From a bacterium (GTDB taxonomy: Bacteria > JAMCPX01): 17,980 bases of DNA. The stretch lies in the NCBI GenBank assembly GCA_021792615.1, contig JAJYUJ010000046.1:1-17980 (forward strand), given 5' to 3'. Of this stretch, positions 12,196 to 17,980 are shown in pieces. A program made the position numbers and the translations under genes. Numbering within the stretch: position 1 is the first letter of the stretch; every line of letters begins with the position of its first letter. The notes beneath the pieces were generated by a model. It ran no database searches and was not told the DNA's origin. It was given only the letters and a program-made list of their open reading frames with translations.

Positions 12196-12519
12196 ATGCT
12201 CCCCAGTTTCCCCATACCTTACCCGGATACGACCAATGAGCTCGTCCGCAATTTCCTCTTGGCCGTAATGTCAACACTCGCAAAAGCGGATCGCGAAAGG
12301 ATAAGCGAGCGAACCAAGGCAGGCCTGGCCCGGGTAAAGCGCTCCGGGAAAAAGCTAGGACGTCCGGGGATTACATCGAGCAAACGTGTGCAAGCCCTGA
12401 AGCTGATTAAACAGGGCTACAGTCTTGGGCAGGCAGCCCAACGACTCGGCGTAGGCCGTTCGAGCGTCTTTAATTGGCGAAAAGAACGCGTAGACAGATC
12501 GGGTAGGAAAACAGTATAG
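12196..12519 (+). pseudogene. Serine recombinase (resolvase/invertase) C-terminal remnant
   Basis: The 107-aa frame carries the end of a serine recombinase catalytic domain and its DNA-binding tail: NELVRNFLLAVMSTLAKADRERISERTKAGLARVKRSGKKLGRP is the long E-helix and basic arm, and KRVQALKLIKQGYSLGQAAQRLGVGRSSVFNWRKE is the helix-turn-helix. The N-terminal catalytic half, including the nucleophilic serine, is absent, and a TGA lies directly before the ATG. The first dozen residues (LPSFPIPYP) do not look native before DTTNE, so the junction is probably near 12,225. It starts only 46 nt after ligA and marks the edge of the accessory region. It may still make a DNA-binding fragment but cannot recombine. 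Confidence 0.85.
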
Positions 12520-12613: not shown

Positions 12614-12946
12614 ATGATGCTGATATTGAAGGGTGTTTTAAAAGAAGAGCTTGAGAACTCAAAAAGGCGATACTCAGTTTTCAGAGAGGCTTTTGATAAG
12701 CTACCCGTTGGGGTACTTGTAAAGAAAAAAGTGAGCGGCCGAGATTACTATTACCTGATGTTCAGGGAAGGTAAGAAAGTTAAGTTTATTTACAAGGGTA
12801 AGAATGTTTCCCAGGAAGAGATTCAGAAATATGCGGATGCAAAAAAGATGCGGTCTAAATACAGAAGCTTCCTTATAGACTTAAAAAAAGAGATATCCTT
12901 TTTAAAGAAGGCTTTAAATGGAAGAGCAATGCGATCTGTTTCTTAA
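12614..12946 (+). CDS. Small basic protein, candidate antitoxin or partner of the nucleotidyltransferase
   Basis: This 110-aa, strongly basic protein has an N-terminal helix (KEELENSKRRYSVFREAFDKL), a beta hairpin with an aromatic/basic face (GRDYYYLMFREGKKVKFIYKGK) and a long C-terminal helix (QEEIQKYADAKKMRSKYRSFLIDLKKEISFLKKAL). The hairpin resembles those in DUF6788-type proteins, often next to mobile elements; I am not certain of membership. It is followed by, and overlaps by 29 nt, the nucleotidyltransferase gene, so the two are translationally coupled. The order (small gene first, NTase second) and strong shared promoter match type IV-like AbiE and other NTase toxin-antitoxin pairs. 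AGGAG precedes the ATG by 9 nt; ATG at 12617 is an alternative. Confidence 0.75.
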   Translation: MMLILKGVLKEELENSKRRYSVFREAFDKLPVGVLVKKKVSGRDYYYLMFREGKKVKFIYKGKNVSQEEIQKYADAKKMRSKYRSFLIDLKKEISFLKKALNGRAMRSVS

Positions 12947-13631
12947 AGTTTTAACCAAATTTCACAGTTCAGGCGTACTGGATAATGTTGTTCTTATCGG
13001 AAGCTGGAGCACATATTTCTATAAAGACTATTTTTCTGCTCAAAATTATTACCCCACTATAAAGACTACAGACATGGATTTCCTTGTTCCACTGCCTATC
13101 AAAACTAATAAGAAAGTAGATATTGCTGAACTTCTGCGCCCCGATGATTTTAAAGTAATCTTTAGCAACAGCGGCTTTATACAACTTGAACATCCTGGGC
13201 TTACGATAGAGTTTCTTGTTCCTGAACATGGTAAAGGAACTAAAGGACCTTTCATACTTCCTCAATTTGGAATAAGTGCACAACCATTAAAAATGCTCGA
13301 TATTCTTGCCCAAAATACCATAGCGATTGAGTCGAATGGCATAAAGGTTACGGTTCCCCATCCGGCTGCATACGGTTTACACAAACTCATTGTGTCTCAG
13401 AGGAGAACTTCAAAAGAGAAGATGTTAAAAGATCAGGAAAGCGGTTTGTCCGTGCTGCACGCCCTTATTGAAAAAGGGGAATCGGATACAATAAAAACTA
13501 TGTTCAATAAATTACTGCCATCATGGAGAGAAAAGGTACTTGATGCATTGACGAAATATGATGATCAAGATGTAATGCGTGTTTTGAAGCAAACTGAAAA
13601 TATCGAAATACACCGTGGCCGGCACCGGTAA
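12918..13631 (+). CDS. Nucleotidyltransferase-fold protein (GSU2403/AbiEii-like), candidate toxin
   Basis: The 237-aa product has a minimal Pol-beta-type nucleotidyltransferase core: LIGSWSTYFYKDYF (Gly28-Ser29), then KTTDMDFLVP with the metal-binding pair Asp52/Asp54, and a third acidic residue Glu97 in LTIEFLVPE. The helical C-terminus has HPAAYGLHKLIVSQRR and a Lys/Glu-rich stretch. This layout resembles the GSU2403-type nucleotidyltransferase family and AbiEii/MenT toxins, which act on nucleotides or tRNA. The third catalytic position is Glu rather than Asp, which is allowed in some members. AAGAAGG precedes the ATG. It overlaps the small upstream gene and has lower G+C than the housekeeping half. 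A toxin role is inferred from fold and context; it could instead be a plain accessory NTase. Confidence 0.8.
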   Translation: MEEQCDLFLKVLTKFHSSGVLDNVVLIGSWSTYFYKDYFSAQNYYPTIKTTDMDFLVPLPIKTNKKVDIAELLRPDDFKVIFSNSGFIQLEHPGLTIEFLVPEHGKGTKGPFILPQFGISAQPLKMLDILAQNTIAIESNGIKVTVPHPAAYGLHKLIVSQRRTSKEKMLKDQESGLSVLHALIEKGESDTIKTMFNKLLPSWREKVLDALTKYDDQDVMRVLKQTENIEIHRGRHR

Positions 13632-14038: not shown

Positions 14039-14064
14039 GAGGGTATTAATCAGGAGGGTTCTCA

Positions 14065-15087
14065 ATGCGCGTCTCCCATGTCGGGTTTCATAAGGATATT
14101 TTCAAACCTTCTTTGTCAAAGTCAACCGCTCAAACGGTACTTAATCTGAATAATCAACTAAGTACCATTCAATCAAAATTACAAGCTCAAGATTTTACCG
14201 GCATGACAAAGGACGATATTTTAGGAAGCTTGCTTTATGCCACAGCCATCTCTTATTACGCAGAATACGACGTGATGGATCAGATGCAAGCAAAGGGTAT
14301 AGGAGTAAGAATTGCGAGAGTGCCATCAGAAGTAGTTTTTTCAGTTACTATGAACGTAAGCTATATGTTTGGTGTAGCAACGAGTATAAGCCCGGCTGGA
14401 CTAAAGATGGATGTGCAAAGAAACTTAGAACTCACGCAAGCTACAAATGGAGATAACAACAAAGTAATACAATATATGTCTGCAAGTGGCATGAACTCCT
14501 CAGCACTCGAGAATGGAGTACCAGAACAGCTATTTTCAACATCTACTAATCCTGTGCAAGGCGTATCAGCAATAAAAGCAATTGAGATAGCTAACAATGA
14601 GGGTATACCTATATACATAATAAATCAGTCAAACATCTCCACTGTATTACCACAGCTTCAATTAAGTCCCGATGTAATAAGTGATATACAAGATGCGGTA
14701 AATGCAGGGAAGGCAGTGACTGTATCGCAGACTGATATCACTTACAACGGTTGGACAGGGGTAATGATAGCGTCGCCTGTTGTTGGTGCTATATTAACTA
14801 TCGCATTGGGTGCTATAAACTTATACACAGATATATGTAAAATAACGGGAAAGAATCTAACATCTGATCAAACAAAAATGCTTCTCACAATTGCGATAGG
14901 AATATTTGTTTTTGGCGGAATTGTCACAATAGCTTCAATAGCAAATATCCCAATATTAATTGCGGTGTCAGTAATGTGGATACTTTTTAGTACAGTATTG
15001 GAGTGGTTCATTGATTGGTATGGAAACATAGCATCACACCCCAATACTGGTTTTATAATTATAAAACGAGAAATTTGTGAAATGTGA
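14065..15087 (+). CDS. Conserved N-terminal region fused to hydrophobic C-terminus; candidate polymorphic-toxin tip
   Basis: The 340-aa protein has two parts. Residues 1 to about 232 are soluble, with recognisable blocks: VSHVGFHKDIFKP, SLLYATAISYYAEYDVMDQ, TSISPAGLKMDVQRNL, VQGVSAIKAIEIANNEGIPIYIINQSN and DITYNGWTG. From memory these blocks occur near the C-terminus of much larger secreted transglutaminase-like proteins of deltaproteobacteria, where the part after NGWTG varies. Residues 233-316 instead form three membrane helices (VMIASPVVGAILTIALG; MLLTIAIGIFVFGGIV; IPILIAVSVMWILF) and a short tail. No signal peptide is present. A strong AGGAGGG precedes the ATG. The gene overlaps the next by 11 nt. 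A pore-forming or membrane-targeted tip cassette is my best guess; an anchored enzyme remnant is the alternative. Confidence 0.75.
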   Translation: MRVSHVGFHKDIFKPSLSKSTAQTVLNLNNQLSTIQSKLQAQDFTGMTKDDILGSLLYATAISYYAEYDVMDQMQAKGIGVRIARVPSEVVFSVTMNVSYMFGVATSISPAGLKMDVQRNLELTQATNGDNNKVIQYMSASGMNSSALENGVPEQLFSTSTNPVQGVSAIKAIEIANNEGIPIYIINQSNISTVLPQLQLSPDVISDIQDAVNAGKAVTVSQTDITYNGWTGVMIASPVVGAILTIALGAINLYTDICKITGKNLTSDQTKMLLTIAIGIFVFGGIVTIASIANIPILIAVSVMWILFSTVLEWFIDWYGNIASHPNTGFIIIKREICEM

Positions 15088-15772
15088 AAACTTTAAGAGA
15101 GTATTGTCCGATCTTAAAAAGATAAGAGAAGACAGCGACAGAAAAAGGAAAGAAGCTCTGAAGGAGATCTTTGCTGGGGGGCATCCGTTTATAATTTTCA
15201 AAGCACTCTTTGTCTTACTGTCTATTTTGATAATAATTTGGGTTTCTTGTTTACTAGTGCCTTTCAATTATATTTTCTGGTCAATATCCAACCGCAAAAC
15301 CATAAATTTCTGGCTGCTTGTTTTATTCAACTTAATGATTTTGATATTAATATTCCAGCTTTATAAGTTATTTCAATTTCTACCAACCACCTTATTACTT
15401 CCTGTGGCCATTTTTTCCTGTATTAATGCAGGATTTGGATTTATGGTTTTTATAGTAGCAAGATATACGCTTTTTACCCTTGGAACGGAAAAAATATCAA
15501 GGATAACCATAAACTCATCTGTAGGTTTATATCTTTTCTTACAATTCCTGAATATGTCAATATGGGTGATGCTATTTATGATAATATATTCGCTATATAA
15601 TGCAAACAACTATTCTGCTGTATTTTTATCGGGAGTAATCGGTTTATTATGGGTAACGATGATAGGATTTTTCCTTATCAAATATCCCGAAGACGCAATA
15701 ATAAGGAAGATTAGACTATATGAGCTACAACTATGGAATTGGATTAAAGTTGATAGTGGAAAAGACAAATGA
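15077..15772 (+). CDS. Five-helix membrane protein, candidate immunity or accessory protein
   Basis: I do not recognise the family. The GTG-started 231-aa product has a charged coiled-coil-like N-terminus (residues 1-32, SDLKKIREDSDRKRKEALKEI), then five predicted membrane helices (about 38-62, 76-98, 103-128, 148-174, 180-202) and a short amphipathic tail (IRKIRLYELQLWNWIK). It overlaps the 340-aa gene by 11 nt and its TGA overlaps the ATG of the next small gene (ATGA), so the three form one translationally coupled unit. GAGAAA upstream is a weak ribosome site, consistent with coupling. Membrane immunity proteins often follow membrane-acting toxins, which is why I suggest this role. Codon use is AT-rich, like the neighbours and unlike the housekeeping half. 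Confidence 0.75.
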   Translation: MKCENFKRVLSDLKKIREDSDRKRKEALKEIFAGGHPFIIFKALFVLLSILIIIWVSCLLVPFNYIFWSISNRKTINFWLLVLFNLMILILIFQLYKLFQFLPTTLLLPVAIFSCINAGFGFMVFIVARYTLFTLGTEKISRITINSSVGLYLFLQFLNMSIWVMLFMIIYSLYNANNYSAVFLSGVIGLLWVTMIGFFLIKYPEDAIIRKIRLYELQLWNWIKVDSGKDK

Positions 15773-15897
15773 TAAAGCGTTTAATAAACAAAATTCTAAT
15801 TTTTTGTCTTATTAATACGGCCGGATTAATTTTAATAAACGCTTTTGCCTATGCCCAAACATCTCAACAAATTTCTAATGGATTGACTTTGAGGTAA
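15769..15897 (+). pseudogene. Signal-peptide gene truncated by IS insertion
   Basis: An ATG overlapping the stop of the upstream gene (ATGA) opens a frame with a textbook signal peptide: MIKRLINK, a hydrophobic core (ILIFCLINTAGLILINAF) and an AYA-type cleavage site before QTSQQISNGLT. The host-derived part ends near 15,889, where an IS3-type left end begins, and a stop in the element (TAA 15895-15897) closes the frame after 42 residues. The mature part of the protein is lost. After the element, at 16852-16878, an open frame ending ...AVGKIKGG and TAA sits just before the next gene; it may be the last codons of the same gene. Confidence 0.7.
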
Positions 15898-16848
15898 GCT
15901 GAAAAAAGTAGACACCAAAAGTTAAGTAAATAATAACTTAATGGAGGTGTTAAAATGGAAAGAATACCGTATGGGAAGTACACGAAGGAATTCAGGCAAG
16001 AGGCAGTAAAGGTTGTGATTGATGGTGGATTATCGATATATGAGGCGGGAAAGCGGCTATCCCTTTCCCCTTCCACATTAACCATCTGGGTGAAGGCGTA
16101 TAAATCAGGCAAGCTTTCAGAAGTAGGGAGTACCCAGCGACCATTGAGCGAGCAAGAGATGGAGATAGCTCGGCTGAAACGGGAACTGGCAGAGGTAAAG
16201 ATGGAGCGGAACATATTAAAAAAAAGCGGCAGCGTACTTTGCGAAGGAGTCGCAGCGAGGTGCGCGATGATAAAAGGGATGCGGCTCGGATATTCAGCGT
16301 CTTTTCTTTGCCGGGTTTTGTATGTGTCAGCGAGTGGGTATTACGCACGGCTGAACAGGAAGCCCTCTTGTCGGGAACTGGAGGATACGAGACTGGGAAT
16401 AGAAATACAGGCAGTGCAAAAGCGAACCAGGGAGACATGCGGTTCCGAGCGACTGCAACGTGAATTAGCGGGTCAAGGGATCGAAGTAGGAGTCTGCCGT
16501 ATCCGCAGGCTCCGCAAGGAACTGGGTATTCGATGCAAACAGAAGAGGAAATTCAAGGTAACTACCGATTCCAATCATAAGCTGCCCGTGGCACCGAATC
16601 GTCTTGAGCAAAGATTTGAGGCGACAGGGCCTAACAAGGTGTGGGTAATGGATATCACGTCTATACCTACAGGAGAAGGCTGGTTATACCTTGCCGGACA
16701 TAAGGATATATACACGGGAGAAATCGTTGGGCATGCCATGAGTGATCGTATAACGAAGGGCCTTGTCAGCAGGTCGCTATTTCAGGCCGTGGCTTCAAAA
16801 CGCCCGGCCAGGGGGCTGATGCACCATTCCGACAGGGGGAGTCAGTAC
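15890..16848 (+). mobile_element. IS3-family insertion sequence, right half deleted
   Basis: The left end is placed at TGAGG (15890), with AGTAGACAC ending 26 bp in, a layout like IS3-type ends (TGA...GTGGACAC from memory). A transposase starts 65 bp inside. The element ends abruptly inside orfB at 16848, right after the codons for SDRGSQY; the remaining third of orfB and the right inverted repeat are gone. No complete target duplication can be identified. It disrupts the signal-peptide gene on the left and abuts the ribosome site of the next membrane gene on the right. Confidence 0.85.
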
Positions 16849-16851
16849 TGA
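15955..16851 (+). pseudogene. IS3-family transposase OrfAB, C-terminally truncated
   Basis: The N-terminal part is OrfA: a helix-turn-helix (KEFRQEAVKVVIDGGLSIYEAGKRLSLSPSTLTIWVK) and a leucine zipper (MEIARLKRELAEVKMERNILKK). OrfB has an HTH_21-like region (CGSERLQRELAGQGIEVGVCRIRRLRKELGI) and the DDE core: first Asp in WVMDITSI, second Asp in HHSDRGSQY. The catalytic Glu is missing because the frame ends at TGA right after SQY. OrfA and OrfB are read in one frame through a run of eight A (16218-16225). One base fewer would restore the usual OrfA end (AAAYFAKESQRGAR, TGA at 16268-16270) overlapping the natural orfB ATG at 16267. GGAGG precedes the start. Confidence 0.92.
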
Positions 16852-16881: not shown

Positions 16882-17721
16882 GTGACACCAAAATTAACAA
16901 AGAGTTACAGTATTGCATATAGCATTGCTATGGTTTTTATATTGTTAATTCCGGTTCTGTTATATATTAAACGTTTTGATTTAACGTCAATCAGGGATAT
17001 AAATATATCTTTTTTAAATTCTTTAACAACATGGTCCGGCATTAGTATATTGTGTTGGTTAGCTGGATTATTCTTAAGTTCAATGACGATATATTGGGAA
17101 CTATATGACAGTAAATTTACGAGTTCTGGAATTTCTTTGCAAAAACGCCTACAGGCTCTTTGGATTATGGCTTTTATGCCAGCATTGATTGGCTTTTTAT
17201 TAGCATTCTACACATTTGTTAGTAAGCCTGATATAAATGAAAAATATCTTGGTCTTAAGCTGCTTGCGATATTTCTCGGTTTCTATCCTGTTGCGGTTTA
17301 TGCGCTATTAAAAGCAAGACAATATACCATGGCACATTCAGCTATGGATAGCAGAATTGTTCCACCAATAGAAATCCCAAAATATCTAAAATCAAAAAAG
17401 TGGATGGTTATAATATTTATTGTCACCTGTGTTTTATCTTCTTGGATTGGTGCAATCGTAACTATAGGATATATTTCCTATTTTAGGCGAGGATACAAAT
17501 ACAGATATATATTATACTTATTTTTGTTTGTTTTCGGAATGTATGTAACGTGGCTGGAAGAGCCAATAATTAATCACATGAAGCTCGTTCATGTGAATCA
17601 AGCATTAGGATTCCAGGCGTTTGCATTTCATATTACCTACGCCTTATTTTCATCAGTCTTTTACATTTGCATAATAAAAATTATATTACTTTTCAGAAGC
17701 GAATCAGTTAAAACCAGTTAA
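16882..17721 (+). CDS. Seven-helix membrane protein of unknown function
   Basis: I do not recognise the family. The 279-aa product starts at GTG with a perfect AAAGGAGG 6 nt upstream. About seven hydrophobic helices are visible (12-29, 51-73, 91-112, 123-143, 174-199, 208-224, 245-271) with charged loops, including KARQYTMAHSAMDSRIVPPIEIPKYLKSKK between helices four and five and the acidic WLEEPIINHMK loop before the last helix. No signal peptide, catalytic motif or transporter signature is evident. It lies 30 nt past the truncated transposase and was probably the next gene of the same AT-rich operon before the IS event. Paired with the five-helix gene upstream, it suggests a membrane-centred system. 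Confidence 0.78.
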   Translation: MTPKLTKSYSIAYSIAMVFILLIPVLLYIKRFDLTSIRDINISFLNSLTTWSGISILCWLAGLFLSSMTIYWELYDSKFTSSGISLQKRLQALWIMAFMPALIGFLLAFYTFVSKPDINEKYLGLKLLAIFLGFYPVAVYALLKARQYTMAHSAMDSRIVPPIEIPKYLKSKKWMVIIFIVTCVLSSWIGAIVTIGYISYFRRGYKYRYILYLFLFVFGMYVTWLEEPIINHMKLVHVNQALGFQAFAFHITYALFSSVFYICIIKIILLFRSESVKTS

Positions 17722-17765: not shown

Positions 17766-17980
17766 ATGAGTAAAATTTCGTTTCTAGATGTTTTAGGTGC
17801 AGGCTTTATATTTCTTCGTTACATAAGGGCAAATGACAATGTCTTAGTGTTTTTTTTGTCTCTTTTCTTTATCGTAATGGCATTATATGAATCAAAATAT
17901 AACCTATCGATTGCTATTATATTAAGCTTTACGATATTAATATTTAGCTTTGCAGCATATTTAAAAGAAACAAGATCGGA
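17766..17980 (+). CDS. Membrane protein, 5' part only (runs off the window)
   Basis: An ATG opens a frame with no stop before the window edge (71 codons). It begins MSKISFLDVLGAGFIFLRYI and contains two strong hydrophobic helices (VLVFFLSLFFIVMALY and SIAIILSFTILIFSFAAYL) separated by a short polar loop (ESKYNL), then a basic stretch (KETRS). A weak GAGA lies about 10 nt upstream. It lies 44 nt after the previous membrane gene on the same strand, so it likely belongs to the same unit. Confidence 0.65.
   Translation, partial: MSKISFLDVLGAGFIFLRYIRANDNVLVFFLSLFFIVMALYESKYNLSIAIILSFTILIFSFAAYLKETRS

Follow-up and report, generated by a model that had tools for sequence, protein, structure and literature searches.

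A predicted orphan toxin tip with a candidate immunity gene, and its relation to signal-peptide-bearing transglutaminase-like proteins with exchangeable tails

Genes and features of the cassette

The present analysis concerns a candidate toxin gene and the gene that overlaps its 3′ end on a 17,980-nucleotide stretch of bacterial DNA (GTDB lineage Bacteria; JAMCPX01), comprising positions 1 to 17,980 of contig JAJYUJ010000046.1 in GenBank assembly GCA_021792615.1 and hereafter called the window. The candidate toxin gene is an open reading frame (ORF) at 14065-15087 on the + strand that begins with ATG, encodes 340 amino acids (aa), and has the boundaries given in an initial annotation made from the sequence alone. 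Its relatives comprise other short proteins of the same kind, which we refer to as orphans, and much longer proteins with a signal peptide, which we refer to as giants. The parts of the cassette are as follows.

14052..14058, + strand: Shine-Dalgarno sequence AGGAGGG, 6 nt ahead of the ATG, read from the sequence
14065..14130, + strand: N-terminus, aa 1-22 (MRVSHVGFHKDIFKPSLSKSTA), delimited by codon-level comparison with orphans, giant N-termini, and giant internal sequence
14131..14763, + strand: constant pre-toxin block, aa 23-233, delimited by identity to orphans and by profile matches in several phyla
14764..15087, + strand: variable hydrophobic tail, aa 234-340 plus stop, a putative membrane-inserting toxin domain with a homologue at the C-terminus of a 1011-aa giant (L085/L141)
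15077..15772, + strand: putative cognate immunity protein of 231 aa with five transmembrane (TM) segments, a homologue of which (186 aa) lies right behind the homologous tail in L141

The sequence blocks ISPAGLKMDV, GVSAIKAIEIANNEGIPIYIINQSN, and ITYNGWTG that were singled out at initial annotation are present in the ORF and kept in its relatives, and the abrupt join reported after NGWTG, from soluble sequence to three hydrophobic helices, is borne out by three Kyte-Doolittle peaks within aa 234-340. A low-confidence structure model places three long helices in the tail (aa 240-261, 267-293, and 297-323). Here and below, signal peptides and TM segments were assigned from sequence and hydropathy, without dedicated predictors. 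The motif GYxxxDPxTGAGAYMISGG (20 aa), which normally lies between block and tail in other members of the family, has been lost from the window copy. Neither ORF 14065-15087 nor the partner ORF 15077-15772 has a match in Pfam, NCBIfam, or PADLOC.

The strong ribosome site described upstream is the AGGAGGG listed above, and the 5′ leader around it is common to an orphan on another contig of the same genome (C13) and resembles the leaders of giants. The gene had also been credited with its own promoter, which a promoter consensus scan did not support, returning 10 sites against 9.9 in shuffled sequence, though the leader is common to the C13 orphan. Overlapping membrane-protein genes had been described downstream; this holds for ORF 15077-15772, which overlaps the toxin gene by 11 bp, but not for the next gene, which starts at 15769 and encodes a secreted toroid protein.

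The constant block, its tails, and the genes behind them

A profile search with the N-terminal region alone, which the initial annotation had put forward as a check, recovered this region repeatedly with unrelated C-termini. Relative to orphans of its own and a related genus, the window ORF is 71-82% identical over aa 23-236 and only 15-23% identical over aa 237-340, so that the homologues are not collinear over the 340 aa with one common tail. Its own genome carries the constant block in five places with at least three kinds of C-terminus. The C13 orphan is 70% identical to the window copy over aa 3-250 and then continues into a different hydrophobic tail; two block copies on C54 (36-41% identity) end in NlpC/P60-type domains; a block remnant on C26 is truncated after ~93 aa; and a match on C36 is limited to the first ~24 aa, which form the N-terminus of a signal-peptide protein running off its contig. 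In a genome of the sister genus (G006), three giants of 1056-1104 aa share an array of ~30 kb with several orphans of 352-399 aa. Their tails differ, and behind every giant and orphan stands a small gene, in most cases a multi-TM one; truncated toroid genes are interspersed, and another contig holds a fourth giant. Between the C13 orphan and one G006 orphan, identity rises from 72% in the block to 99% beyond it, and their downstream genes are 99.5% identical, a mosaic that reflects recombination of a tip together with its partner gene.

In the giants, the block lies near the C-terminus of proteins of ~1000-1100 aa with a signal peptide and a transglutaminase-like domain, directly ahead of the variable tail, as the initial annotation had described for large secreted transglutaminase-like proteins. 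The sole Pfam domain of the giant is Transglut_core (PF01841, E=3.5e-17, aa 333-480 of 1063), and the same scan found no RHS repeats. The catalytic Cys of the solved structure 3isr aligns to Ala in the Geobacter protein (L061), and in the window's family this position is, by inspection, occupied by Asp; given these replacements, the transglutaminase domain of the giants is probably catalytically dead. Profile matches to the block occur on contigs labelled Deferribacteres, Nitrospira, Alphaproteobacteria, Geobacter argillaceus (an isolate), Desulfuromonadaceae, and Pelotomaculum, and were obtained in 38 of 277 genomes of Geobacter's class and 37 of 345 genomes of the phylum of the Nitrospira metagenome-assembled genome (MAG). 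The Pelotomaculum MAG, from a Gram-positive lineage, encodes the same architecture with a large, possibly nuclease-like tail bearing a VEAK motif (L063:6001-7631), which runs off its locus. The block had no relative among viral contigs, leaving a phage origin unsupported.

Block-bearing proteins are of two kinds, those of ~1000-1100 aa with short variable tails and those of 1600-3500 aa with long immunoglobulin-like tails. The latter, transglutaminase-type proteins (L031:4479-6139, L093-L104, L123-L133) whose ends are not toxin-like, indicate that the block is not confined to toxins. Behind the block we extracted 68 tails, a set that includes some of the long immunoglobulin-like kind and some duplicates, and these fell into 36 BLAST clusters. 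Many are multi-helix hydrophobic membrane domains. Others are enzymatic by Pfam, namely NlpC/P60 (E=7.6e-10), peptidase M15_3 (8e-8), and a prokaryotic phospholipase A2 whose match (2.8e-6) falls just short of the curated cut-off; caspase-like (SGHG...C) and nuclease-like (VEAK) tails were recognised by eye, with no Pfam support. One related hydrophobic tail (L060) gave weak matches to Pfam Colicin (0.0049, below cut-off), colicin Ib (0.02), and pyocin S5 (0.05), pore-forming bacteriocins being the only recognisable matches it has.

The downstream genes differ and are tied to the variable tails, as the initial annotation had anticipated. Among the next genes taken from 55 cassettes, 16 pairs of similar genes were found, and 12 of these also had similar tails (permutation mean 0.41, maximum 4 in 10,000); seven of these pairs span different genomes. 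TM-bearing tails are followed by partners with at least two TM segments, and soluble tails by secreted or one-TM partners (36/3 versus 1/13, Fisher p=9e-9, from simple hydropathy counts uncorrected for shared ancestry), a pattern that would be expected if membrane toxins were countered by membrane immunity proteins and periplasmic enzymes by periplasmic inhibitors. Elsewhere in the window's own genome, on contig C62, a gene that by inspection is near-identical to a putative immunity gene of G006 stands without a toxin beside a truncated toroid gene (L149:2841-3815).

The one clear relative of the window tail is found at the end of the 1011-aa giant encoded in G204, a genome of the class of Geobacter (L085/L141; phmmer best-domain score 26.6 bits versus a maximum of 13.3 in 300 hydropathy-preserving shuffles). 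The gene right behind this giant (186 aa, 17-bp overlap) is homologous to ORF 15077-15772 (blastp 8e-9; phmmer 29.4 bits versus a shuffle maximum of 15.5), and the third gene in L141 is intact, encoding an alpha/alpha-toroid-CARDB protein of >1900 aa whose start, TQQISNGLSWLTS, matches the stump TSQQISNGLT of the window's third gene. The latter is interrupted, as follows.

15769..15897, + strand: 5′ end of the third gene, a secreted alpha/alpha-toroid (squalene-cyclase/prenyltransferase-like) protein, identified by TSQQISNGLT versus TQQISNGLSWLTS in L141; overlapping start at 15769 and 42 codons, then an IS3-like insertion
15898..16851, + strand: IS3-like element fragment inside the third gene, left edge approximate, with a truncated orfA/orfB-like frame (15955-16851) recognised by eye

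A terminal inverted repeat of at least 14 bp was not found at the IS3-like element. Since the tip, its partner, and the third gene are found again in unchanged order in a different class, we read the window as holding a tip, its cognate immunity gene, and the start of a third gene. A homologue of the partner stands alone in G294. Across nine genomes of the window's own phylum, the window copy is the only occurrence of its tail, and 345 genomes of the phylum of the Nitrospira MAG yielded a marginal match at most. A toroid gene follows 18 of 57 cassettes, from three lineages, within the limited flanks available. Truncated toroid genes at L011:4490-5002, L149:3812-4312, and L065:1833-2264 have one common end point, LYLVTNRIQNRI, which suggests a shared truncation event or a recombination site.

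Construction of the orphan and comparison with known systems

Five orphans from two genera are built on one junction, ...TCA ACC GCT joined to CAA ACG GTA CTC AAT CTG..., with a small number of single-base differences close by. Its left half corresponds to the giant's start codon and first ~20 codons and its right half to the opening codons of the constant block; the stretch that separates the two in the giant, including the signal peptide and the transglutaminase domain, is missing. Residues 1-22 of the window ORF (MRVSHVGFHKDIFKPSLSKSTA) thus derive from the N-terminus of a full-length giant and end ahead of the hydrophobic core of its signal peptide. Different tails sit behind this identical junction, which implies either that the junction arose once and spread or that tips were swapped behind it. 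The blocks of orphans have a dN/dS of ~0.1, comparable to that of giants and indicative of purifying selection, part of which may date from time spent inside giants. Comparison of these sequences shows a modular architecture, exchange of tails, a downstream gene that co-segregates with the tail, a common orphan junction, and a conserved orphan frame. As in polymorphic toxins, a constant N-terminal part is joined to unrelated C-termini, a downstream gene is linked to the tail at the sequence level, and standalone cassettes lie near full-length genes (G006).

A published survey described inactive transglutaminases among polymorphic toxins, in every case directly behind the signal peptide and ahead of an RHS array, and named a single pore-forming domain, W-TIP (Zhang et al. 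2012, PMC3482391). The present family resembles those toxins in having a Sec signal, a transglutaminase-like domain that has lost a catalytic residue, exchangeable toxins at the C-terminus with immunity genes linked to them, and standalone cassettes; however, its giants are without RHS repeats, their transglutaminase-like domain starts ~300 aa into the protein rather than directly after the signal peptide, a different constant block and the GYxxxDPxTGAGAYMISGG motif precede the toxin, and the tails are mostly membrane domains. Judged from its sequences, the family is a new form of polymorphic toxin system, without the RHS repeats of the published inactive-transglutaminase toxins. A search of the open-access literature found no description of the constant block.

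The orphans are also comparable to the orphan cdiA-CT/cdiI and rhs-CT/rhsI modules of contact-dependent inhibition (CDI) and Rhs systems, displaced tips with immunity genes whose use as recombination donors and immunity stores has been shown experimentally (Poole 2011, PMC3150448; Koskiniemi 2014, PMC3967940). In both, a tip and an immunity gene come with a segment homologous to the full-length gene, and both occur in arrays and are interrupted by insertion sequences. CDI and Rhs orphans carry VENN or DPxGL as a demarcating motif and mostly have no start codon, whereas the present orphans keep the ATG, the ribosome site, and the giant's first ~20 codons at one fixed junction, and by inspection carry neither motif, with GYxxxDPxTGAGAYMISGG found in relatives instead. 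Pore-forming colicins and pyocins likewise pair a hydrophobic helical domain with a multi-TM immunity protein, and the L060 tail weakly matches two of them; unlike colicins, the window domain is much shorter (~105 aa), has no detectable colicin similarity, and is accompanied by no colicin receptor or translocation domains.

Interpretation, alternatives, and neighbouring genes

We consider it very probable that ORF 14065-15087 is an orphan, or displaced, toxin tip of a polymorphic-toxin system, followed by its immunity gene. The initial annotation had proposed such a cassette, and the recurrence of the block, the architecture of the giants, and the co-segregation of tail and partner support it, with toxicity of the tail being predicted. 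The full-length form would be a Sec-exported protein of ~1000 aa with, in order, a signal peptide, a coiled region, a dead transglutaminase-like domain, the block, the GYxxxDPxTGAGAYMISGG linker, and an exchangeable tail, and such giants would bring the tip to the periplasm or inner membrane of neighbouring cells. The window tail may be a small colicin-like domain that, acting from outside, forms pores in the inner membrane of competitors or depolarises it, and the 231-aa multi-TM protein would sit in the producer's inner membrane and block the toxin. Having no signal peptide, the orphan itself is probably not exported. It would most likely serve as a donor cassette, from which homologous recombination through the ~640-bp block on one side and the immunity or toroid gene on the other loads the tip onto a giant, while its immunity gene could protect against kin deploying the same tip, an immunity store by analogy with CDI and Rhs orphans.

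Several observations weigh against this interpretation. Searches of Pfam and PDB with the window tail alone returned no match, nor did a profile built from seven related tails retrieve any colicin from PDB, so that a common colicin fold for all hydrophobic tails was not supported. Structure prediction, a further check put forward at initial annotation, was uninformative: AlphaFold models of the window ORF and of the C-terminal part of the Geobacter giant were poor (mean pLDDT 53 each) and were not used. No export machinery was identified, and no complete giant was recovered from the host assembly, only the C36 N-terminus, in contigs that break in these repeats. Finally, the window orphan keeps its start codon, unlike most CDI and Rhs orphans, and may be translated.

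The last point bears on the most probable alternative, that the orphan is itself deployed as a translated, signal-less mini-toxin (block plus pore domain) that reaches the outside by cell lysis, in the manner of a colicin, or through an unknown secretion system. The start codon, strong ribosome site, and retained giant-like leader favour it, as do the recurrence of one in-frame junction in orphans that come from two genera and differ in their tails, and a purifying selection on the frame comparable to that in giants. Yet no receptor-binding or translocation domain was recognised and no lysis gene was seen, the linker motif is lost from the window copy, and the selection measured for the block stems in part from its past within giants and from recent recombination; on balance we regard this alternative as unlikely.

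More doubtful still is a decaying remnant of a giant without present function. It would account for the loss of the signal peptide, transglutaminase domain, and GYxxxDPxTGAGAYMISGG motif, and is in keeping with the destruction of the neighbouring third gene by an insertion sequence and with the truncation of the C26 copy after ~93 aa, but sits poorly with the open frame, its dN/dS of ~0.1, the intact overlapping immunity gene, and a junction common to the orphans of two genera. Very little probability attaches to a variable membrane anchor, in which the tail would tether a surface protein and the downstream genes would be unrelated membrane proteins: about three hydrophobic helices in a tail without a catalytic motif are what such an anchor would look like, but relatives carry peptidoglycan peptidases or phospholipase A2-, caspase-, or nuclease-like domains at the same position, and tail type and downstream genes co-segregate, so that this reading was already disfavoured. 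An intracellular toxin-antitoxin or abortive-infection module, to which a hydrophobic signal-less toxin with an overlapping partner gene would conform, is the least probable of all, given that a homologous tail is carried by an exported giant, enzymatic tails attack the envelope, and PADLOC matches neither orphan nor partner.

Extending the interpretation of the window ORF as an orphan tip to its relatives, we lean, with some reservation, towards an undescribed class of polymorphic toxins in several phyla that combines a dead transglutaminase, the new block, and envelope-directed tails, in part with a secreted toroid partner, and that preserves signal-less mini-toxins by means of a fixed start-to-tip junction and swaps tips across genera; as part of the same judgement, the envelope-directed tails would comprise many families of minimal pore formers together with wall or lipid enzymes. 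The combination of block, motif, tail, immunity gene, and toroid gene makes a putative antibacterial system concretely definable, both in Geobacter relatives and in several lineages that are little studied; beyond the transglutaminase core, Pfam and NCBIfam leave this system unnamed. With it come dozens of candidate pairs of membrane toxin and immunity protein, testable in Escherichia coli, and with the fixed orphan junction the exchange of tips and the retention of displaced ones become directly testable questions.

Beyond the insertion sequence, the window contains a multi-TM ORF (16882-17721, 279 aa) with no family match, followed by a hydrophobic ORF (17767-17980) that runs off the contig. 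Both are possibly further immunity genes; the first, examined as another immunity gene, matched 0 of 55 candidate partners. Upstream of the cassette and adjoining it, a small ORF overlaps a nucleotidyltransferase gene (NTP_transf_8, Pfam 7e-25) at 12614-13631 in an AbiE-like toxin-antitoxin arrangement, and a C-terminal fragment of a serine recombinase/resolvase with a helix-turn-helix (HTH) lies at 12196-12519.
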